NCBI RefSeq assembly: GCF_000455365.1
Contig: NZ_HG315685.1
Location: forward strand, 103,786-167,785
Direction of reading: 5' to 3'
From: Halopiger djelfimassiliensis
GTDB lineage: Archaea > Halobacteriota > Halobacteria > Halobacteriales > Natrialbaceae
Length of the DNA: 64,000 bases
The notes beneath the pieces are model-generated. The model did no database searches. It was not told the origin of the DNA and was given only the letters and a program-made list of their open reading frames with translations. Both the position numbers and the translations under genes were made by a program. This document shows, piece by piece, positions 10,752 through 22,417 of the stretch. Position 1 is the stretch's first letter. Every line of letters begins with the position of its first letter.

Positions 10752-11405
10752 ATGAGCGAACTCCCGGATCGGGTTCCGACGCCCTGTCCTTCGTGCTCGC
10801 CGGACCTCGAGACGGTCCACGAAGTACTCACCGAAGGGGGCGGCACCGTCACCGTCCGCTGTAGCGAGTGTAGCCACGTCCACAAAGTGCAACCGGAACG
10901 TCCCTCCGAGGTTACCCTCGATGTCGTCGTCTCTCAGGGCGGCGAGTCGTTCACGGCGAACGTCACCGCGCCAGAAGACGAGACCGTCTCGGTCGGTGAC
11001 GAGTTTATCCTCGAGACCGAGGAAGTCCTCTCGACCGTCCGCGTCACGAGCGTCGAGCTCGATGGCCACCGGCGAACCGAAGAGGCTCCGGCCGACGACA
11101 TCGAAACCGTCTGGAGCCGCGAGGTCGACAACGTCGCGGTCAACGTCACCGTCCATCCACAGGACGGGTCCCGGGACGACAGCCGGAGTATCACGGTCCA
11201 CGTCCCCGGCGATTACGAGTTCGAAGTCGGGGAGATCGAGGAGTTCGGCGACGACGAGTTCGAAATCGACGCGTTCGTCGTTCGTGACGACGCCTCCGGC
11301 TACGATCGTGACCGATACGAAATGGAAGGGGATACGGTACTCGCAAAAGACGTCAAGCGCGTCTACGCCTACGACCAGACGACCAGCGCCTGGTCGGCCT
11401 GGTAA
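10752..11405 (+). CDS. HVO_0476-family zinc finger protein
   Basis: The 217-residue protein carries an N-terminal zinc ribbon (Cys12-x2-Cys15 and Cys37-x2-Cys40) followed by an acidic beta-rich domain (residues 50-217) ending in a Trp-containing tail. The arrangement corresponds to the conserved haloarchaeal HVO_0476 family, whose function is unknown; a nucleic-acid or protein-binding role is an inference from the zinc ribbon. It starts 45 bases after the LURP-one gene stop and may be co-transcribed with it. Confidence 0.85.
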   Translation: MSELPDRVPTPCPSCSPDLETVHEVLTEGGGTVTVRCSECSHVHKVQPERPSEVTLDVVVSQGGESFTANVTAPEDETVSVGDEFILETEEVLSTVRVTSVELDGHRRTEEAPADDIETVWSREVDNVAVNVTVHPQDGSRDDSRSITVHVPGDYEFEVGEIEEFGDDEFEIDAFVVRDDASGYDRDRYEMEGDTVLAKDVKRVYAYDQTTSAWSAW

Positions 11406-11825: not shown

Positions 11826-13298
11826 ATGTCCGACGAGTATTCCGTCCGTTTATACGACGAGATCGATCCGGAGAATCGCCCGTCCTTGCTCGAGGCGCTC
11901 ATCCCCGTCGTGGGAATGATCGGCTTTCTCGCGATCGGGATCGGGATCTACGGGATGGACCCGCAGTTTCCGCTCTTCTGGGGGATTACGTTCACCGGAC
12001 TGTTTAGCTACTACCGGTTCGACACGTCCTGGAAAGAGCTGTACGACGGTATCTCCGGCGGCATCGTCATGGGGATGCAGGTCATCTTCATCCTCTTTAT
12101 CGTCTACGCGTTGATCGCGACGTGGATCCACGCGGGGACGATTCCGATGTTGATGTACTACGGACTCGAGTTACTGACGCCGGCGATTTTCCTCCCCATG
12201 ACGGCGATCATTACCGCAGTTATCACGTTCGCGATCGGGTCGTCGTGGACGGCGGCGGGGACGCTCGGCGTCGCGTTCATCGGGATCGGATCCGGACTCG
12301 GCCTCCCGGAACCGATGACGGCAGGGGCGATCCTGTCGGGAGCGTACGCCGGCGACAAGCAATCCCCCCTGTCCGATACGACGAACCTCGCGGCGGCGGT
12401 TACGGACACGGATCTGTACGATCACATCAACGCGATGCGGAACGGAACGGTGCTCGCGTTCGTGATCTGTGTCTTCCTGTATGCGGTCCTCGGCATTCGG
12501 GCGTCGGGGTCCATTCCCGTCGATCGGGTTGCGGAGATACAGACGGCACTTACCGGAGCGTATCACATCACGCCGCTTTCGCTGTTTCCGCTGGTCGTGA
12601 CGTTCGCTCTGGCGATCTACGGCGTCTCCGCCATTCCCGCCCTCGGTGCGGGCGTCTTTTCCGGGGCCATAACGTCGTACGCACTCCAGGGATCGGCGTT
12701 CGACGCGGTCTGGGCTGTGGCCCAGTCGGGAACGGAACCCGAAACGGGACTGGCAGTCGTCGACGGACTGCTCGAAAGCGGTGGCATGATCGGCGGTGCG
12801 TGGGCGGTGACGATCGCCATTTCGGCGCTCGCGCTCGGCGGCATGTTCGAACGGACCGGGGTCATCGCGGTCCTCGCACACCACCTCGGTCGGCTGGCTC
12901 AGGGGGCCGCCAGTCTCACCGGTGTCACTGCCGTCTCCGCGATTTCGATGAACGCCCTCGCCGCCGAACAGTACATCAGTATCGTCGTCCCCGGAATCAC
13001 CCTTGGGGAACTCTACGAGGAGAAGGGGCTCAAAAGCGAGAACCTGTCACGGGCGGTCGAAGCGTCCGGCACGGTGACCAGCGCGTTGATCCCTTGGAAC
13101 AGCGGTGCCGTCTTCATGGCGGGGACACTGGGCGTCGGGACGTTCCAGTATGCACCCTACTACTTCCTCGGATTCCTGTCGCCGCTTATCCTCGTGGTGA
13201 TGGGACTCACCGGCTGGAACATCACGTACCAGCAGGCGGATGCGACCGACGCGGGCGTCCCGACGGAGGAGGCAACGCCCACGGCGGGCGGTAAGTGA
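11826..13298 (+). CDS. nhaC: NhaC-family Na+/H+ antiporter
   Basis: The 490-residue integral membrane protein has about 11-12 hydrophobic helices and the NhaC signatures ITAVITFAIGSSWTAAGTLG and SGAYAGDKQSPLSDTTN, plus the second-half EASGTVTSALIPWNSGA motif with the conserved Thr/Ser and Pro-Trp-Asn. It would exchange cytoplasmic Na+ for protons at the cell membrane, central to ion balance in a halophile. Length is normal for the family. A small open frame and AT-rich promoter elements lie in the 420 bases upstream. Confidence 0.93.
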   Translation: MSDEYSVRLYDEIDPENRPSLLEALIPVVGMIGFLAIGIGIYGMDPQFPLFWGITFTGLFSYYRFDTSWKELYDGISGGIVMGMQVIFILFIVYALIATWIHAGTIPMLMYYGLELLTPAIFLPMTAIITAVITFAIGSSWTAAGTLGVAFIGIGSGLGLPEPMTAGAILSGAYAGDKQSPLSDTTNLAAAVTDTDLYDHINAMRNGTVLAFVICVFLYAVLGIRASGSIPVDRVAEIQTALTGAYHITPLSLFPLVVTFALAIYGVSAIPALGAGVFSGAITSYALQGSAFDAVWAVAQSGTEPETGLAVVDGLLESGGMIGGAWAVTIAISALALGGMFERTGVIAVLAHHLGRLAQGAASLTGVTAVSAISMNALAAEQYISIVVPGITLGELYEEKGLKSENLSRAVEASGTVTSALIPWNSGAVFMAGTLGVGTFQYAPYYFLGFLSPLILVVMGLTGWNITYQQADATDAGVPTEEATPTAGGK

Positions 13299-13403
13299 TC
13301 GGCCTCGCGGTTCGAACGCGGGTCGCAGTTACCGACCGCCGCCGGACGCGACCCGGCATTCGCGTCCCACACTCTATTGGCCGTGCGTTCCGAGGATAGC
13401 CGC

Positions 13404-14057
13404 ATGTTCGATCGGTTCGGTCCCGACGGGTCCGACGACCACGAGACCGCCCGCAAGCGTATGGTCCGAACCGTCGCCTCGCGCGTTGACGACGAACGCG
13501 TTCTCGAGGCCCTCGAGTCGGTCCCCCGTCACGAGTTCGTCCCGGCGGATCGTCGAGCAAGCGCCTACGCCGATCGGCCGCTCCCGATCGGTGACGGACA
13601 GACGATCAGCGCACCGCATATGGTCGCGATCATGGCCGACAAACTCCACCTCGAGCACGGCGACGACGTCCTCGAGATCGGTACCGGCCGTGGCTACCAC
13701 GCCGCGGTGACCGCCGAACTCGTGGGGGCGGCACACGTCTACAGCGTCGAGTACAGCGAGGAACTCGCCGACCGGGCGCGTGACTCCCTCGCGGAGGCGG
13801 GGTACGGTGCGGTCTCGGTCCGCGTCGGCGACGGTCGTGAAGGGTGGCCCGAACACGCCCCGTTCGACGCTGCGTATTTCACCTGTGCGACGTCGGCGCT
13901 TCCCGATCCCGTCGTCGAGCAGGTCCGGCCCGGCGGCCAGTTACTCGCGCCGATCGGGACCGGGTTTCAGACGCTCGTCCACGCCGAGAAACGAGCGGAC
14001 GGCTCGCTCGAGCGCACCGAATACGGCGGCGTTCGGTTCGTCGAGATGCGCGGCTAG
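13404..14057 (+). CDS. pcm: Protein-L-isoaspartate O-methyltransferase
   Basis: The 217-residue SAM-dependent enzyme shows the N-terminal helix with VPRHEFVP, the substrate-side GQTISAPHMVAIMADKL motif, motif I LEIGTGRGYHAAV and motif post-I VEYSEELADRA. It methylates abnormal isoaspartyl residues so that aged proteins are repaired. ATG 13404 is preferred to the longer frame from 13377 because the usual N-terminus (MFDRFG) starts there. A second, divergent copy follows 72 bases downstream in the same direction. Confidence 0.93.
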   Translation: MFDRFGPDGSDDHETARKRMVRTVASRVDDERVLEALESVPRHEFVPADRRASAYADRPLPIGDGQTISAPHMVAIMADKLHLEHGDDVLEIGTGRGYHAAVTAELVGAAHVYSVEYSEELADRARDSLAEAGYGAVSVRVGDGREGWPEHAPFDAAYFTCATSALPDPVVEQVRPGGQLLAPIGTGFQTLVHAEKRADGSLERTEYGGVRFVEMRG

Positions 14058-14129: not shown

Positions 14130-14876
14130 ATGGACCCCGCGGTACTGCGAGAGGACATGGTCGACGGACTCGAGTCCGCGGCCAAGGACGTCCTTCAGGA
14201 CGAAGCCGTCGCCGTCGCGATGCGTGACGTCCCCCGTCACGAGTTCGTCGACGACGAGCGAACGGCCTACGCCGATCGCGAACACGAAACTCTCGGCACC
14301 CGTGTGCTCGCCCCGAGCACCGTCGCCCGACTCCTGCAGGTGCTTTCAATCGAGGACGACGAGACGGTGTTGATCGTCGGTGCCGGCGTCGGCTACACGG
14401 CGGCCGTCGCCGCCGAACTCGTCGGCGAAACCAACGTTCACGCCGTCGACATCGCTCGCCCGCTCGTGATCGAAGCGCGGCAGAACCTCGCCAGCGCAGG
14501 CTACGACGGCGTCCTCGTCGATCGTCGCGACGGAGCGGACGGCTTCCCGGAGTACGCCCCGTTCGACCGAATCCTGCTCGAGGCCGCCGCCGTCGATCCG
14601 CCTCGGGCGCTGCTCGAACAACTGACAGACGGCGGCCGACTCGTGTTTCCGCGGGGAGCCAACCGGCAGCGACTCGAAGCGATCTCGGCCGACGGCGGCC
14701 GGGAGCAGTTCGAGGCGGTTTCGTTCGACCCGTTGCTGGTCGACGGCGAGCAGTCGGGGGCCGTAGAACGCGATCGAACGGCCCGCGAGGACCGCGAGCG
14801 TGCGCGACGCCGCGCCGAATCCCGGCGCGGTTGGGAACAGGACTGGATCGAGTGGGAGGACGTCCAGTCACACTGA
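14130..14876 (+). CDS. Divergent protein-L-isoaspartate methyltransferase paralogue
   Basis: The 248-residue protein keeps the PCMT fold (MRDVPRHEFVDDERTAYAD, LIVGAGVGYTAAVAAEL) but the T-I-S-A-P-H active-site segment of its neighbour reads TRVLAPSTVARLL here, so the hydroxyl/His pair that contacts substrate is changed. The C-terminus is extended by a basic/acidic Arg-rich helix (residues about 205-248). Tandem PCMT paralogues are a known haloarchaeal arrangement; this one probably binds SAM but may not repair isoaspartate. Function uncertain. Confidence 0.8.
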   Translation: MDPAVLREDMVDGLESAAKDVLQDEAVAVAMRDVPRHEFVDDERTAYADREHETLGTRVLAPSTVARLLQVLSIEDDETVLIVGAGVGYTAAVAAELVGETNVHAVDIARPLVIEARQNLASAGYDGVLVDRRDGADGFPEYAPFDRILLEAAAVDPPRALLEQLTDGGRLVFPRGANRQRLEAISADGGREQFEAVSFDPLLVDGEQSGAVERDRTAREDRERARRRAESRRGWEQDWIEWEDVQSH

Positions 14877-15141: not shown

Positions 15142-17259
15142 TTAGTTAGAGTCTCTCTCGAAGGCCAGCCGCACCAGTTTCCGTTCGGCCGCTCGCAGGT
15201 GGTAGTGGTAGGTCGGCGGTGACACGTCGAGCGCGGCCGCGAGGTCCTCCCCCGTACTCTCGCGGGGCCACTCGAAGAATCCGCTGTAGTGGGCCGCCTG
15301 CAGGGCCTCGAACTGTTTGTCGGTGAGCCGTTCCTCGAGATGGGTATCGAGCTGTCGTGCCGATCGGGTGGTCGTCTCGCGTTTCGCGACGAGTTCCGTC
15401 TCGGGGTAGACGTCCCTGATCGACTCGACCAGCGACCGCGTATCGATTCCCTGTGGCACCTCGAACACCAGCGTCGCCGTTCCGTTTTCGACTCTTGCTG
15501 CCCGCCACTGGACGTCGAACGACCGCAACACCTCGAGAAACGGCGTCGTCGTGATCGTCGTTTCGTACAGCGTTTCGTCGTCCCCTTCCGAAACGACCGA
15601 CAGCGTTTCGATCGACGCTCGCTCGGACTCGAGGCCGTCGAGTTCCGCCGTCGACGGGACGCTTACGAAGGCGACGATCCCGCTGCCGCGATCGATCACG
15701 CCTTCGAGGGTGATTTGCCCGTCGATCCGCTTCGAAAGGCGGTTGAGCAACAGTCCCGAGTCCCCACACTCGAGTTCGAGTTCCAGCCGACTATCCGTCA
15801 GCATCGCCCGCGTTCGCTCGACCGAACGGATCGCATGCCCGATGGTTTCGCCGAGTTCGGCAAGAACCTCGCGTTCGCCGTCGCCGATCGCGTCGACTCC
15901 CTCGACGTGGACGAGCAAGACGCCGTACTGTCGGTCGCCGTCGGTGATCGGAACTGCGAGTATCGTCTGATACCCGTACGTAAGCGCCTCCTTTCGTCGC
16001 CTGTCCCAGCCATCGGCCTCGAGGACGTCGCGTACGAGCTGTACTCGGTTGGTATCGAGCGTTTCCCGGATCAGTGCCGTTTCGGGAGCACACTGGCCGT
16101 CGGCCCGGATGCGATCGACGTACGTCGCGTCGACCCCCGCCCAGACCGCCGGTTCGGGCGGCTGGTCGTCGTTCGAGGCGATCCACGCGAGCCGATAGCG
16201 CTCGGTGTCCGCGAGCCGGTCACAGACCGTCGTTTCGATCTCGGTCCGCGTCGAGGCCTGGGCGACGCCGTGGTTGATTTCGCGTACGATCCCGTTGATG
16301 TGGTTGAGCCGCGTCAACTCCTCGTTCTGTCGGGTCAGCGTCCGATCGTGTTCCCGGAGCAACTGCTCTCGCTCCGCGCGATCGAGCGCTGCCTCGGTGT
16401 TTGCCGCCAGAATGTGCAACAGTTCGGTCATCGTCTCGTCGAAGCCGTCGACATCCGTCGCACCCGCAACCAACACGCCGTGTGAGCCGAGCGGAACGAT
16501 CAGTTCGCTTCGGCTCAGCGTTTCCGTCTCGGTAGTCGTGATCCCGTCTTCCCGCGTCAGGTCCTCGTAATAGGCGCTTTCCCCGTCGGAGAACACGTCC
16601 CATACCAGCCCCTCGCCTCGCTCGAAGGTCCGTTCGGGATCGACGAGTTCCCGCGCATCGCTGGTCGAGGCGGCGTGCTCGAGAACGCCGTCCGTCGACT
16701 CGAACGTGTACGCCGCGGCGACGACCACGTCGAGGATCTCGCCCGCAGTGTCGACCGCCGATTGGTAGATCTCCGCTTTGGTGCCGGCCCGCATCAAATC
16801 CCGCGTCGTCTCGTGTAACGTCGCTAGCGTCCGCTCGTACCGCCGTTCGTTCTCCCGCAGTTCAGTCTCGGTCCGGTACTGGCGGACGGCGTTGGTGATC
16901 TGGTTTGCAAGCAGCGTGTACTGTTCCTCCCCGGACTCCTTTTGGAGATACTGGGTTACGCCCGCGGCGATCGCTTCGCTTGCGACCTCCTCCGATCCGC
17001 GTCCGGTAAAGAGGATAAAGGGGAGATCCGGGTCGTCCTCCCGGACCCGCTCGAGCAACTCGAGCCCCGTCAGCTCCGGCATCTCGTAGTCGCTGACGAT
17101 ACAGTCGACCGATCGCTGAGCGAGTATTTCGAGCGCTTCGGTGCCGCTTCTCGCTGGGACGGCAACGATCTCGTCGCGTTCGCGCTCGAGCATCTCCCCG
17201 GCGAGTTCGGGAAACCCCGGTTCGTTGTCGACAACGAGGACGGTAATCTGGTTCGTCAT
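15142..17259 (-). CDS. Bat-type regulator: receiver, two GAF-like domains, bacterio-opsin-activator domain, HTH_10
   Basis: The 705-residue protein combines a CheY-like receiver (about 4-118, phospho-acceptor Asp57 in SDYEMPEL), a coiled linker, two GAF-like sensor regions (about 165-300 and 330-480), a bacterio-opsin activator beta domain (490-640) and a C-terminal HTH_10 DNA-binding domain (LTDKQFEALQAAHYSGFFEW near 645 onward). HTH_10/Bat proteins are haloarchaeal transcription regulators; the receiver implies control by a histidine kinase, none being adjacent. A palindromic AT-rich element lies 51 bases upstream of the start. Confidence 0.93.
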   Translation of the reverse strand: MTNQITVLVVDNEPGFPELAGEMLERERDEIVAVPARSGTEALEILAQRSVDCIVSDYEMPELTGLELLERVREDDPDLPFILFTGRGSEEVASEAIAAGVTQYLQKESGEEQYTLLANQITNAVRQYRTETELRENERRYERTLATLHETTRDLMRAGTKAEIYQSAVDTAGEILDVVVAAAYTFESTDGVLEHAASTSDARELVDPERTFERGEGLVWDVFSDGESAYYEDLTREDGITTTETETLSRSELIVPLGSHGVLVAGATDVDGFDETMTELLHILAANTEAALDRAEREQLLREHDRTLTRQNEELTRLNHINGIVREINHGVAQASTRTEIETTVCDRLADTERYRLAWIASNDDQPPEPAVWAGVDATYVDRIRADGQCAPETALIRETLDTNRVQLVRDVLEADGWDRRRKEALTYGYQTILAVPITDGDRQYGVLLVHVEGVDAIGDGEREVLAELGETIGHAIRSVERTRAMLTDSRLELELECGDSGLLLNRLSKRIDGQITLEGVIDRGSGIVAFVSVPSTAELDGLESERASIETLSVVSEGDDETLYETTITTTPFLEVLRSFDVQWRAARVENGTATLVFEVPQGIDTRSLVESIRDVYPETELVAKRETTTRSARQLDTHLEERLTDKQFEALQAAHYSGFFEWPRESTGEDLAAALDVSPPTYHYHLRAAERKLVRLAFERDSN

Positions 17260-17329: not shown

Positions 17330-17507
17330 TCAGAATCGATGATGGATACCGTTCGCACTCACACTGGTGTCGCGTCGGAACCGAGCGCTCGCGGACGGTG
17401 ATGGCCGAGGTCGATCGGTGACCGGTGTTCGTCGAAAGGAACTTGTCGTGGTTCGAACCTGCACAATGTTCGATCACCGACTGATCGCTGGAGAAAGCCG
17501 TTCGCTA

Positions 17508-17637
17508 TCGAAGTCGAGTATCGGAAAAGCGCCCGAGGCGGGATTTGAACCCGCGTCACGACCGTGACAGGGTCGTATGATGGGCCACTACACCACCCGG
17601 GCTCGCAACTCATCGTTTCCGGGTGAGAGTATTAAGG
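17508..17637 (-). repeat. 130-bp direct repeat, copy 1 (tRNA-Asp plus flanks)
   Basis: Bases 17508-17637 are identical to 20201-20330. The repeat covers 22 bases 3' of the tRNA, the whole tRNA-Asp, and 35 bases 5' of it including the promoter-like CTTAAT element. Homology stops abruptly on both sides apart from 4 matching bases at 17503-17506. Confidence 0.95.
17530..17602 (-). tRNA. tRNA-Asp (GUC), copy 1
   Basis: A 73-nt cloverleaf on the minus strand: acceptor GCCCGGG pairs with CTCGGGC (one G-U), discriminator G, anticodon stem CGACC/GGTCG with loop CTGTCAC giving anticodon GUC, and T arm GCGGGTTCAAATCCCGC. No intron is present and CCA is not encoded. A CTTAAT promoter-like element lies about 31 bases upstream. 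Confidence 0.97.
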
Positions 17638-17684
17638 GTTTTGTTCTGTTCGGAGCAGTCACCCCGATCGCGGGGACGATCCGG

Positions 17685-20060
17685 TCAGTCGTCTCCCGGC
17701 GCTGCGGGCTTTCCTGTCCCCATCGTTTCGGCCCGTGTCTCGAAGCGACCGACCAGCGATTGTAACTCCTCTGCACGATCCGAGAGCGACTCGGTACTGG
17801 TCGCGATTCGTTGGATCGAACTCGTCTGTTCCTCGGCGGCAGCGGAGACGTTCTGGACCTCCGTTGCCGTCCGATCGCTGACGCTCGTGATGTCGTCGAC
17901 CATCGTGGCGACCTCCTGGGCCGAGGTCGCCTGCTCGTCAGTCGCCTCGTTGATCGACTGGATGCCGGCGTTGGCCTCGTCGATCCGGTCGCCGATCGAC
18001 TCGAGCGTCTCGGCGGCTTCGTCGATGGTTTCCCTCCCGTCTTCGATGTCGGCCTGCATCTCGAACATGTCGTCAGCAACGGATTCCGTCGACTCCTCGA
18101 CGGCTTCGACGAGTTGTTCGACCTCCCGTGTCGCCACAGCGGTTTCCTCCGCGAGCGACTTGACTTCGGTCGCGACCACCGCGAACCCGTCTCCGGACGC
18201 CTCCGCGTTCGCGGCCTCGATGGATGCGTTTATCGCCAGCAGGTTGGTCTCTTCGGCGATGTCGTCGATCACCTCGACGATCTCGCCGATTCGTTCGACG
18301 TCGCGCTGCAAGGTCTCCATCTCGTCGACGGTCGCCGCAGCTTTCGATTCGATTCGGTCCATCTCCTCGATTGCCTCGGTCGCGGCCCGTTGGCCCTGTT
18401 TCCCCCTCGTGGCGGCCTGTTCCGACTGCTCCGCGACGGTCTCCGACGAGGACGCAACCTCCTCGATGGTCGCGGAAAGCTCAGTCAGTTCCTCGGCTGC
18501 GGTCTCGAGTTTCCGGCTTTGGGTATCCGCGCCGGCCGAAATCTCCTCGATGCTTTCGGCAACGTCGCCGCTCGAGGCCTCGATCTCTTCGGTGGAAGCG
18601 GTCACGTCCGAACTCCGATCGTCGACCTCCTGGGCGACGTGCTGGATCCGGACCACGAGTTGCTCGATGTCGGTTAGCATCTGATTGATCGCCTCGCCGA
18701 TCTCGGTCATGGCCTGACTCTGACTGTCCGTCTCGAGTCGCCTCGTGAGGTCGCCGTCGGCGGCTGCCTCGATGGTATCGCGGTAGGCGGCCGCTTTCGA
18801 TTCCAAGTGTGTGTTCAGCGCTTCGGCCTCCGCTTTGGCCTGCTGTGCCGTCGCTTTCGCCGTTTCGGCCTCCGCTTTGGCCTGCTCGGCTCGCTCGCGT
18901 TCCGCTTCGGCCTCCTGTGCGCGCCGTTTGACGTCCGAAAGTTGTGATTTGAGCGTCTCCCGGATCCGGACGAACAGCGTCGATAACTCGCCGAACTCGT
19001 CGCTCCGGGACTGATCGATCGTCACGTCGAGATCACCGCTCTCGATCGCTTCGGCGTATTCGGTCAACTCCTCGAGCGAACCGTTGATATCCCGGGAGAT
19101 GACCGCGCCAACCGCGACGAAACCGAGCAGCGAGATCCCGATCAGAACCATGAGACTTCGTGTCACTTCGTCGACGGTTCCAAAGACCGTGCTCCGCGGG
19201 GCGACGACGGTGACGACCCACGATTTCTCGTCGATCGGGACCGTCGCGACGACGGCCTGATCGTCTTCGATCCCGTCGTGGCTCGCCGTTACCACGTCGG
19301 TTCGTGGCTCCGTAACCTCCTCCTCGAGCCGGGGTAGTGCTTCGAGCATGGCGTACTCGCCGAGGATTTTCCCGGTGTCCTCGGCGAGCGCGACCCGTCC
19401 GTTCCTCGTGGAGACGACTTCGATCGTCCCTCCCTCGACGGGTGCCGTAAGTAGTGCTCCCCGTTCGGTCAGATCGACGGTGATGACTATCGCGCGTGTC
19501 CGTTGTCCCTCGACCGGGCTGACGAATCCGATCCGTTTCTCGCCGCCGATTTCGTACGGTTCGAACGAGCGGGCGCCGTCGACGCCGCTGAACGAGACGG
19601 CACGGACCGCCCACGGGCGGTCCGATTGAACCACCTGTTGGCCCTCCCGCTCCGATTGTGTGCTGATTTCGATCGTACTCGTCTCCATATTGTAGTAGTG
19701 GATCGACTGGACGTCGCTGGGGAGGATTTCGAGGTTCGTCCGGAGTGCGGTGCGGATCTCGTCCTCGGTGCCGTCCGTGATCGTCTCGTCCTTCGAGAGA
19801 CGGACGACGTCGGCGTTTCGGTCCTGGACGAATTCGTTGATACCGCTGGCTTCTCGATCGGCTGACTTGAGCAGCGTTTCCTCGGCGTCGTTCTCGACGC
19901 TCGCCTGAACGCCGGAAAACGTGATGTAGCCCACTCCGAGGAGCAACCCCGTGACGACGAGAATCGCCGCGCCGATTTTGAAGACGTATCGCCCCCGCAA
20001 CGTATCGTATACCCCCCGTATCGAACGGCCGTCGGGGTTACCGTCCCGTCTCGCATCCAT
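17685..20060 (-). CDS. Methyl-accepting chemotaxis transducer (Htr type)
   Basis: The 791-residue protein has TM1 (about 26-48), an extracellular sensor domain of about 250 residues of Cache-like type, TM2 (about 302-322), a HAMP domain (323-375), an Ala/Glu/Lys-rich coiled coil, a second HAMP-like segment and the MCP signalling hairpin with the tip sequence [17 protein letters not shown]. It would sense an external ligand and control CheA. The frame is open upstream through a tRNA gene, but ATG 20060 is chosen because the basic N-terminus and TM1 follow directly and an AT-rich promoter (ataatcattaaa region) precedes it. No che gene is adjacent. It is enclosed by two tRNA-Asp repeats. Confidence 0.94.
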
Positions 20061-20200
20061 ATCTTGGTAATTCGATATATAATCATTAAACCTGATGGCC
20101 CCTCGAGTGCGCGACTTCGCGGTCGGAGGGTACCGATAGCACACCGGCAGTTGGACGCGAGGGCTCCAGTCGTCCAGCCGTGAGAACGAGCGACCCGCTG

Positions 20201-20330
20201 TCGAAGTCGAGTATCGGAAAAGCGCCCGAGGCGGGATTTGAACCCGCGTCACGACCGTGACAGGGTCGTATGATGGGCCACTACACCACCCGGGCTCGCA
20301 ACTCATCGTTTCCGGGTGAGAGTATTAAGG
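20201..20330 (-). repeat. 130-bp direct repeat, copy 2 (tRNA-Asp plus flanks)
   Basis: Identical to 17508-17637, offset exactly 2693 bases. Together with copy 1 it brackets the transducer gene, giving the structure repeat-transducer-repeat. Recombination between copies would delete the transducer and leave one tRNA-Asp. Confidence 0.95.
20223..20295 (-). tRNA. tRNA-Asp (GUC), copy 2
   Basis: Identical in every base to the copy at 17530-17602, with the same 5' promoter-like sequence, so both copies are expected to be expressed. Anticodon GUC, no intron, CCA not encoded. Confidence 0.97.
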
Positions 20331-20608
20331 CTTTCCAATCGAACCCCGTGTGGTACGGCGAATCGGGACACGATTTCGGCCGCTCGAGGAGGTATCTATG
20401 CCAATTACTCACACGACCCACAAGGAATTTAACTGATAACCGGGTATTGACACGTGTGATCGGCAACTCCGGTCAGGTTCGCCCGGGGTTGGTTAGCCGT
20501 GCTTTTGGATCGAGTTAGTAACCGTTAAATGCTTCCCGACGGTATCTGGCTGTAGTATCTCGTGACAGCCGCTTCTCTCCCGATAGCCCACACGCACATC
20601 ATCAACAC
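20331..20608. other. 278-bp intergenic region upstream of the RNA polymerase operon
   Basis: It contains AT-rich candidates for the operon promoter (aaggaatttaactgataacc at about 20421-20440 and gttaaatgc at about 20524-20532). Neither can be chosen from sequence alone; the later one would give a leader of roughly 50-60 nt before rpoH. No gene is recognised. Confidence 0.4.
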
Positions 20609-20836
20609 ATGGTAGACGTAAGCCAACACGAACTCGTTCCGGAACACACCGTCCTCGAGGAGGACGTGCTCGAGGAGGTGCTCTCCGAGTACGATATCGA
20701 CCGTACAGACCTGCCCAAAATCAAACGCAACGACCCCGCCCTGCCGGACGAGGCGGAGGTCGGCGACGTCATCAAGATCGTTCGCGACTCACGGACAACC
20801 GATCAGGCAGTCGTATACCGACTCGTGGTGGAATAA
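20609..20836 (+). CDS. rpoH: DNA-directed RNA polymerase subunit H (Rpo5)
   Basis: The 75-residue archaeal subunit, homologous to the C-terminal part of eukaryotic RPB5, shows [20 protein letters not shown] and [12 protein letters not shown] motifs. It is part of the polymerase jaw. It is the first gene of the rpoH-B''-B'-A'-A''-nusA operon; its TAA is directly followed by the rpoB'' ATG with no spacer. Confidence 0.98.
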
Positions 20837-22417
20837 ATGGCAATGGAACTCGACCGAGACAAACGACGGGACATTTCGCGCGAATACTTCTCGAGGGAAC
20901 GGCTCGCAGAACACCACTATCGCTCCTTCAACGCCTTCCTCAACCGCGGCATGCAGGAAGTCGTCGACGAGAAGGAGACGATCGACACTGACATCGGCGA
21001 CAAGGAAGGCGAGGAGCCGGTACACGTCGAACTCGGCGACGTTCGCGTCGTCACGCCCCGCGTCCGCGAGGCGGACGGCTCCGAGGAACTGCTGTACCCG
21101 CAGGAGGCCCGCCTCCGGAACATCACCTACTCCGCGCCGGTCTTCATGGAGATGTCTATCGTCAAAGGCGAGGAGGGTGACCAGCGGGTCGTCGACTCCA
21201 CGGAGACCAAGATCGGTCGCATGCCGATCATGGTCGGTTCCGAGAAGTGTAACATTGCGGGCTTTTCCGACGAGGAACTCATCGAAATCGGCGAAGACCC
21301 GGCCGATCCCGGCGGCTACTTCATCGTCAACGGCTCCGAGCGGGTGCTGATGACCAGCGAGGACCTCGCGCCAAACAAGATCCTCGCCGAGTACGACACC
21401 AAGTACGGCGACGAGATTCAGGTCGCCAAGACGTTCTCACAGCGGCGGGGGTACCGCGCCCTGGTACTCTGTGAACGAACGCGTGACGGGCTGCTCGAGG
21501 TCTCGTTCCCCTCCGTCTCGGGATCGATCAACTTCGTGACGCTCGTGCGTGCGCTGGGCCTCGAGTCCGACGAGGAGATCGTCCACAAGGTCTCGAACGA
21601 TCCCGAGGTCGTCAAGTACATGCTCGAGAACCTGGAGGAAGCGGACGTCCAGACCGAAGAGGAGGCCATCGAGGCGCTCGGGCGTCGGGTCGCCTCCGGC
21701 CAGGGCAAAAACTACCAGCTCAAGCGCGCCAACTACGTCATCGACCGCTACCTCCTGCCCCATCTCCACGAGGACGGGGTCCCCGAGGAGGACGTCCGAA
21801 TCAACAAGGCCCACTACCTCTGTCGGATGGCCGAGGCCTGTTTCGAACTCGCGTTGGGCCGACGCGAGGCCGACGACAAGGACCACTACGCCAACAAACG
21901 CCTGAAGGTCAGCGGCGATCTGATGAAGGATCTGTTCCGGACGGCGCTGAACAAGCTCGCCCGGGACGTGAAATACCAGCTCGAGCGCGCGAACATGCGC
22001 AACCGGAACCTCTCGGTCTCGACGGTCGTCCGATCGGACGTCCTGACGGAGCGACTCGAACACCCGATCGCGACCGGCAACTGGGTCGGCGGCCGCTCCG
22101 GCGTGAGCCAGCTCGTCGACCGGACCGACTTCATGGGCGTGCTCTCGCACCTGCGTCGGCTTCGCAGCCCGCTCTCGCGCTCGCAGCCCCACTTCGAGGC
22201 GCGTGACCTGCACGCGACCCAGTGGGGTCGCATCTGTCCCTCCGAGACGCCCGAAGGACCGAACTGTGGGCTGGTAAAGAACTTCGCACAAGCGATGGAA
22301 CTCTCCCAGAACGTCGAGGACGAGAGCAAACTCAAACGCGAACTGGCCTCGATGGGCGTCGAGGGTATTCCGGGCATCGAGAGCATCGAACGATCGACAT
22401 CGCCGGCAGACGACTGA
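20837..22417 (+). CDS. rpoB2: RNA polymerase subunit B'' (N-terminal half of the beta homologue)
   Basis: The 526-residue protein contains the protrusion, lobe and fork parts of the second largest subunit: RLRNITYSAPVFMEM, GGYFIVNGSERVLMTSEDLA, and the fork-loop region LRRLRSPLSRSQPHFEARDLH followed by CPSETPEGPNCGLVKNFA. In haloarchaea and methanogens the subunit is split into B'' and B', and the split is seen here, with B' starting six bases after the B'' stop. It acts in the RNA polymerase core. Confidence 0.98.
   Translation: MAMELDRDKRRDISREYFSRERLAEHHYRSFNAFLNRGMQEVVDEKETIDTDIGDKEGEEPVHVELGDVRVVTPRVREADGSEELLYPQEARLRNITYSAPVFMEMSIVKGEEGDQRVVDSTETKIGRMPIMVGSEKCNIAGFSDEELIEIGEDPADPGGYFIVNGSERVLMTSEDLAPNKILAEYDTKYGDEIQVAKTFSQRRGYRALVLCERTRDGLLEVSFPSVSGSINFVTLVRALGLESDEEIVHKVSNDPEVVKYMLENLEEADVQTEEEAIEALGRRVASGQGKNYQLKRANYVIDRYLLPHLHEDGVPEEDVRINKAHYLCRMAEACFELALGRREADDKDHYANKRLKVSGDLMKDLFRTALNKLARDVKYQLERANMRNRNLSVSTVVRSDVLTERLEHPIATGNWVGGRSGVSQLVDRTDFMGVLSHLRRLRSPLSRSQPHFEARDLHATQWGRICPSETPEGPNCGLVKNFAQAMELSQNVEDESKLKRELASMGVEGIPGIESIERSTSPADD

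Follow-up and report, generated by a model that had tools for sequence, protein, structure and literature searches.

Why should a single chemotaxis transducer gene lie between two perfect copies of a tRNA-Asp gene? The question is raised by a locus in a 64,000-nucleotide stretch of the Halopiger djelfimassiliensis genome (contig NZ_HG315685.1, positions 103,786 to 167,785 of the forward strand; hereafter, the window). A sequence-only reading had taken the arrangement for a duplication, or for the capture of a gene into a tRNA locus, and had predicted that it is an unstable configuration from which recombination would excise the transducer, giving clonal variation in taxis. We consider it very probable that the two tRNA genes are instead an old pair evolving in concert, and that the transducer joined them later and has been kept by selection. 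A search of the literature revealed no report of this locus.

In the window sequence, blocks 17508-17637 and 20201-20330 are identical over 130 bp at an offset of 2693, exactly as first described, and an exact repeat of this length is far beyond chance. When two mismatches are allowed, the repeat grows to 139 bp (copy B, 17503-17641; copy A, 20196-20334; both on the minus strand); the mismatches fall at positions 17507/20200 and 17638/20331, the latter being a base of the signature that distinguishes A from B (see below). Each copy consists of a tRNA-Asp(GTC) gene, a TTAATA TATA box, and a T-rich trailer of about 25 bp, so the statement that each block holds a full tRNA-Asp with its promoter is confirmed. 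The two tRNA genes were called by ARAGORN at 20222-20295 (copy A, on the rpo side) and 17529-17602 (copy B, on the regulator side), both on the minus strand, and each scores 59.3 bits with Rfam RF00005. The window contains no N. A whole-genome search for further copies of the unit, a check suggested by the sequence-only reading, returned only these two copies, the third match being 56 bp long and 75% identical. ARAGORN made two extra calls in the window, a tRNA-Asp and a tRNA-Ala(cgc), at 11068-11163 and 13297-13384 (96 and 88 nt, respectively), which overlap or adjoin protein-coding sequence and are probably false positives.

The order of features on the minus strand is tRNA copy A, the transducer, tRNA copy B, and a BAT/HTH_10 response regulator (15142-17259), the usual neighbour of copy B, which was assigned from domain matches and synteny. 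On the plus strand lie rpoH (Rpo5; 20609-20836, recognised from its translation), the ancestral neighbour of copy A, and directly after it rpoB'' (20837-22417), which serves as a synteny anchor and is part of the species tree. Two tandem protein-L-isoaspartate O-methyltransferase genes are also present on the plus strand of the window (13377-14057 and 14130-14876), and a homolog is frequently retained close to the locus in relatives.

The interval between the repeats, 17642-20195, holds a single gene, as had been claimed. It is one complete, uninterrupted open frame on the minus strand (17685-20060), which encodes an intact chemotaxis transducer of 791 amino acids with an MCP signalling domain (PF00015, 3.8e-37) and a HAMP domain (PF00672, 1.2e-10). 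The AlphaFold model of the sensor half has a double-Cache fold (pLDDT 84), and Foldseek matched this model to the ligand domains of Mlp37, PctA, PctD, and Tlp1. Matches over the cut-off to CheA (PF02895; two) and archaellin (PF01917; six) indicate that chemotaxis machinery is encoded in the same genome. With its domains, its intact frame, and CheA and the archaellum encoded alongside, the protein is a methyl-accepting taxis transducer (Htr/MCP). A promoter-like AT-rich stretch, TTTAATGATTATATATC, lies on the minus strand at 20074-20090, 14-30 bp upstream of the transducer ATG, and is a candidate promoter judged from sequence alone. Neither the G+C content nor the GC3 of the insert stands out, and other matches to the transducer in the window genome reach 29-43% identity only.

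Comparison with the rest of the family bears on the age of the tRNA pair. The repeat unit is present in 121 of 125 family genomes, mostly in two copies, which are usually co-directional neighbours between the BAT/HTH_10 regulator and rpoB'' (100 loci; synteny at the rpo side was judged from rpoB'' matches alone). The gap between the copies has a median of 375 bp (71 assembly-clean pairs, the window included). Upstream of the TATA box, the sequence depends on position, being CGATTGRAAAGCCTTAAT in rpo-side copy A and GAACAAAACCCTTAAT in regulator-side copy B. A leave-one-out log-odds classifier over 22 upstream bases, applied to 66 two-copy genomes, was correct for 66/66 A copies and 64/66 B copies, and the window copies score as their own positions (+36.5 bits for A and -35.6 bits for B). 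These position-specific signatures, together with the fit of the window to them, show that each position has its own orthologous gene across the family and that the window pair is not newly duplicated. Of 20 loci inspected from seven further families in the order, 19 have a tRNA-Asp near rpoB'', and several of these families have a second copy. A and B are thus old, positionally distinct loci. The duplication proposed earlier can be upheld as an old event, in line with the second copy near rpo in several other families; a recent one was rejected on the strength of the positional promoter signatures.

Copy counts in some assemblies need care. In several drafts (L042-L047, L053, L063, L075, L082, L096, and similar ones), tRNA-Asp copies spaced by 70-90 bp next to an N appear to be artefacts of scaffolding, which make tRNA counts too high. 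The "four tRNA-Asp copies" of several relatives, where N lies next to repeats in the pair regions, were set aside as probable artefacts of this kind.

Despite their distinct upstream sequences, the two tRNA genes have not diverged independently. On a tree of three rpo genes from 100 genomes, the tRNA stem pair 29/43, which switches between G-C and A-U, requires about 18 changes per copy. A and B are discordant in 4 of 73 genomes at site 29 and in 5 of 73 at site 43, while simulated independent evolution with the same number of changes yielded about 35 discordant genomes on average, and never fewer than 18 in 400 runs. The rpo genes of this tree come from the adjacent operon, so if the locus had been transferred whole, the tree would tend to shift with it. 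The 3' trailer behaves similarly, being alike within a genome yet unlike that of the nearest species in 36 cases, with the reverse in 17; the upstream region has no such trend (15 versus 39). We conclude that the A and B tRNA bodies evolve in concert, and gene conversion between them is most simply the homogenising process. The 139-bp tract of identity in the window, which spans the tRNA, the TATA box, and the trailer, may in part be due to constraint acting on the promoter and the trailer. That such constraint might explain everything, with purifying selection on tRNA, promoter, and trailer keeping the copies identical and no recombination between them, is conceivable given that tRNA bodies are highly constrained and that the promoter core is conserved between genera. 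Both 29/43 alleles evidently work, however, as they have alternated about 18 times, and yet 69 of 73 genomes have the same base at site 29 in A and B; the trailer, too, follows the genome rather than the nearest species. We regard selection without exchange as exceedingly unlikely.

The transducer has a much narrower distribution than the pair. At a cut-off of E below 1e-200, orthologs were found in 12 of 125 genomes, representing 5 of 29 genera. The ortholog lies between the paired tRNA genes in eight genomes from four genera: the window genome (g1), g4 (G009 and G010), g16 (G079, G082, and G083), and g20 (G095 and G096). G080 and G081 have it on the regulator side of the pair, as does G083 for its second copy; in g11 (G033 and G036), and for the second copies of G080 and G081, it is located elsewhere in the genome. 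The transducers of the other genera with the between-pair arrangement are 58-65% identical to that of the window. Between relatives, dN/dS of the transducer is 0.09-0.24 (the window genus consists of a single genome), and the gene is under purifying selection in these relatives. The nearest named relative in the genome collection is from Natronocalculus (45%); in Natronocalculus amylovorans, two tandem relatives of the transducer (L133, 6001-8241 and 8491-10704; 45% and 44%, respectively) have no tRNA nearby.

The pair is older than the transducer, which is a later insert confined to a few genera. Had the double tRNA with its transducer been ancestral and conserved across the order, the sequence-only reading would have lost its ground; the double tRNA did prove old and widespread, but the transducer did not. 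One relative preserves what may be a trace of the insertion site. Genome G011 (g5), which falls inside the clade on the rpo tree, lacks a transducer ortholog; its tRNA pair is separated by a 208-bp spacer, the last 44 bp of which match, at 93%, the window flank beginning about 41 bp past the transducer stop codon. The match marks one edge of the insert. In G011, the transducer could have been lost rather than never present.

The history of the locus may not be a simple vertical one. The rpo operon is split from the block in g4, g16, and g20, and the window retains the older neighbourhood. The regulator tree unites g1, g4, g20, and g16, while the transducer tree joins g4 with g20 (0.98) and gathers the g16 locus copies in one clade; g20 is placed differently in the rpo and regulator trees. 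Judged from these topologies, the locus may have been transferred in one piece, and part of its spread may be lateral. In g16, the transducer was tandemly duplicated and different copies were retained. Unequal crossover was considered as the source of the second g16 transducer, but the interval between it and the regulator in G083, G080, and G081 contains no remnant tRNA-Asp or promoter, only 8-bp chance matches, and this origin gained no support, although the duplication itself is seen.

Is the arrangement unstable? A crossover between A and B would delete the transducer and leave a single tRNA carrying A's upstream sequence. Relatives mostly keep the tRNA pair without the transducer, rather than the single tRNA-Asp about which the sequence-only reading had asked. 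The single-copy genomes that do exist carry A's upstream sequence in 15 of 16 cases (the remaining one, in G046, is close to the end of a contig), and none belongs to a transducer-bearing genus. At least four changes of tRNA copy number occur on the rpo tree. A x B crossovers may therefore have happened in evolution, though the same picture would result if B had been lost in another way. In one draft genome, G021 (L110), a tRNA-Asp plus spacer unit of 803 bp is duplicated in perfect tandem (100% identical, no N), with tRNA-Asp genes at 7203, 8006, and 8809, and the usual A upstream sequence is missing from the rpo-side copy. Recombination between tRNA copies over evolutionary time is supported by concerted evolution and by the duplication and loss of transducers in g16. 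Excision is another matter: G080 and G081 lack the inner transducer, but a crossover would have left them a single tRNA and they still have two. The assembly of the window genome presents the locus in one state.

These observations also bear on the original proposal in full, namely that a recent duplication or capture made the tRNAs and the transducer as one unit, which is now unstable and excisable and produces clonal taxis variants. The exact 130-bp direct repeat around one gene is what such an event would leave, and the A-type sequence of most single-copy genomes, the gain and loss of transducers in g16, and the perfect tandem unit of G021 are all consistent with it. Both tRNAs, however, predate the transducer; the arrangement has been kept in four genera whose transducers have diverged to the extent given above; and the G080/G081 loci do not have the expected structure. 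We hold this proposal to be very unlikely, and its instability, as stated, finds no support in a gene that persists in four genera under the low dN/dS found in relatives. Such long retention argues against frequent clonal loss. Rare excision must be permitted by the direct repeats; that it is frequent or put to use is hypothetical.

The spacer between the tRNA genes has received other cargo. The genes found in it include those of a PD-(D/E)XK endonuclease and a cold-shock protein (g2), a histidine kinase (G033), and a DDE transposase (G054). The endonuclease matches PF11645 (1.5e-34, G006 sequence, L020); those of the other g2 loci (L019 and L111) were recognised by eye, as were similar-looking ORFs in g6 (L026, L112); a homing-like role of this enzyme at a tRNA locus is a candidate idea. 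In a survey of loci L019-L118, a hairpin-rich cassette (median 144 bp) was found downstream of tRNA-Asp in 87 of 190 clean copies from 21 genera (e.g., L049, L110, L083, L086, and L115). The cassettes end in an approximately 22-bp copy of the tRNA-Asp 3' end, and 21 of the 87 occur in arrays. Outside these positions, such 3'-end fragments are scarce, with 13 in 1.6 Mb, and just 2 have the opposite orientation. A search of the window locus found no tRNA-Asp 3'-end fragments or cassettes.

When an integrating element duplicates its attachment site, the repeat normally contains part of a tRNA, most often the 3' end. In the window, an entire tRNA with its TATA box is repeated rather than a partial attL/attR-type segment, both copies predate the insert, and neither an integrase nor a remnant of one is present within 17642-20195, where the transducer is the sole gene. 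We therefore rejected integrase-type capture, in which a mobile element entering a tRNA 3' end would have brought the transducer and the second tRNA, as very unlikely, even though tRNA 3' ends are preferred attachment sites in archaea (PMC8371274) and short cassettes with tRNA-Asp 3' fragments occupy the locus in many relatives. Capture into a tRNA locus holds in a looser sense, as the transducer-less pair of G011 and the presence of the ortholog in 5 of 29 genera suggest, but not in the manner of an integrase. A broader view would make the rpo-adjacent pair a standing recombination slot, at which crossover, conversion, and 3' cassettes insert, duplicate, and remove genes, and would have a minority of window cells lose the transducer by A x B crossover; this strikes us as distinctly improbable.

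We thus return to an old pair evolving in concert, with a later insert. Copy A beside rpo and copy B beside the BAT/HTH_10 regulator form an old co-directional pair, whose members stay alike because they recombine with each other, presumably by gene conversion. A double-Cache transducer probably entered the A-B spacer later, by a route that can only be conjectured, in the ancestral locus from which those of four present-day genera descend. It has since behaved as an ordinary gene under selection, probably transcribed from a promoter of its own. The case is a warning that a gene flanked by a perfect 130-bp repeat is not always the product of a recent or unstable event. It is also a clear-cut natural example of two tRNA genes that evolve in concert while their promoters stay distinct; the rpo genes provide a synteny anchor throughout the order, and the process can be measured on 73 two-copy genomes. 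Were excision to be seen in culture, tRNA-mediated phase variation in archaea could be tested simply at this locus.

Several known systems resemble parts of this locus. Behind the E. coli tyrT gene there are 178-bp repeats with tRNA-Tyr 3' ends; by analogy, the cassettes of the relatives look like archaeal counterparts of these repeats, or else like tiny integrated elements (a literature search on this parallel found nothing). The transducer shares with the Htr proteins, the haloarchaeal methyl-accepting taxis transducers, a HAMP domain, an MCP signalling domain with its hairpin motif, a double-Cache-like sensor, and chemotaxis machinery encoded in the same genome; the protein itself has no unusual features, and only its location between two tRNA-Asp genes sets it apart. 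As in archaeal tRNA-targeting integrative elements (PMC8371274), added DNA is flanked by direct tRNA sequence, but here a whole tRNA with its promoter stands on both sides, there is no integrase, and the tRNAs are older than the insert. Finally, concerted evolution of multicopy tRNA genes is named for primates and fruit flies (PMC4981973). The shared trait is that copies within a genome are more similar to each other than to their positional counterparts in other species; the present case differs in concerning just two haloarchaeal copies, which have distinct upstream elements and a protein gene between them.
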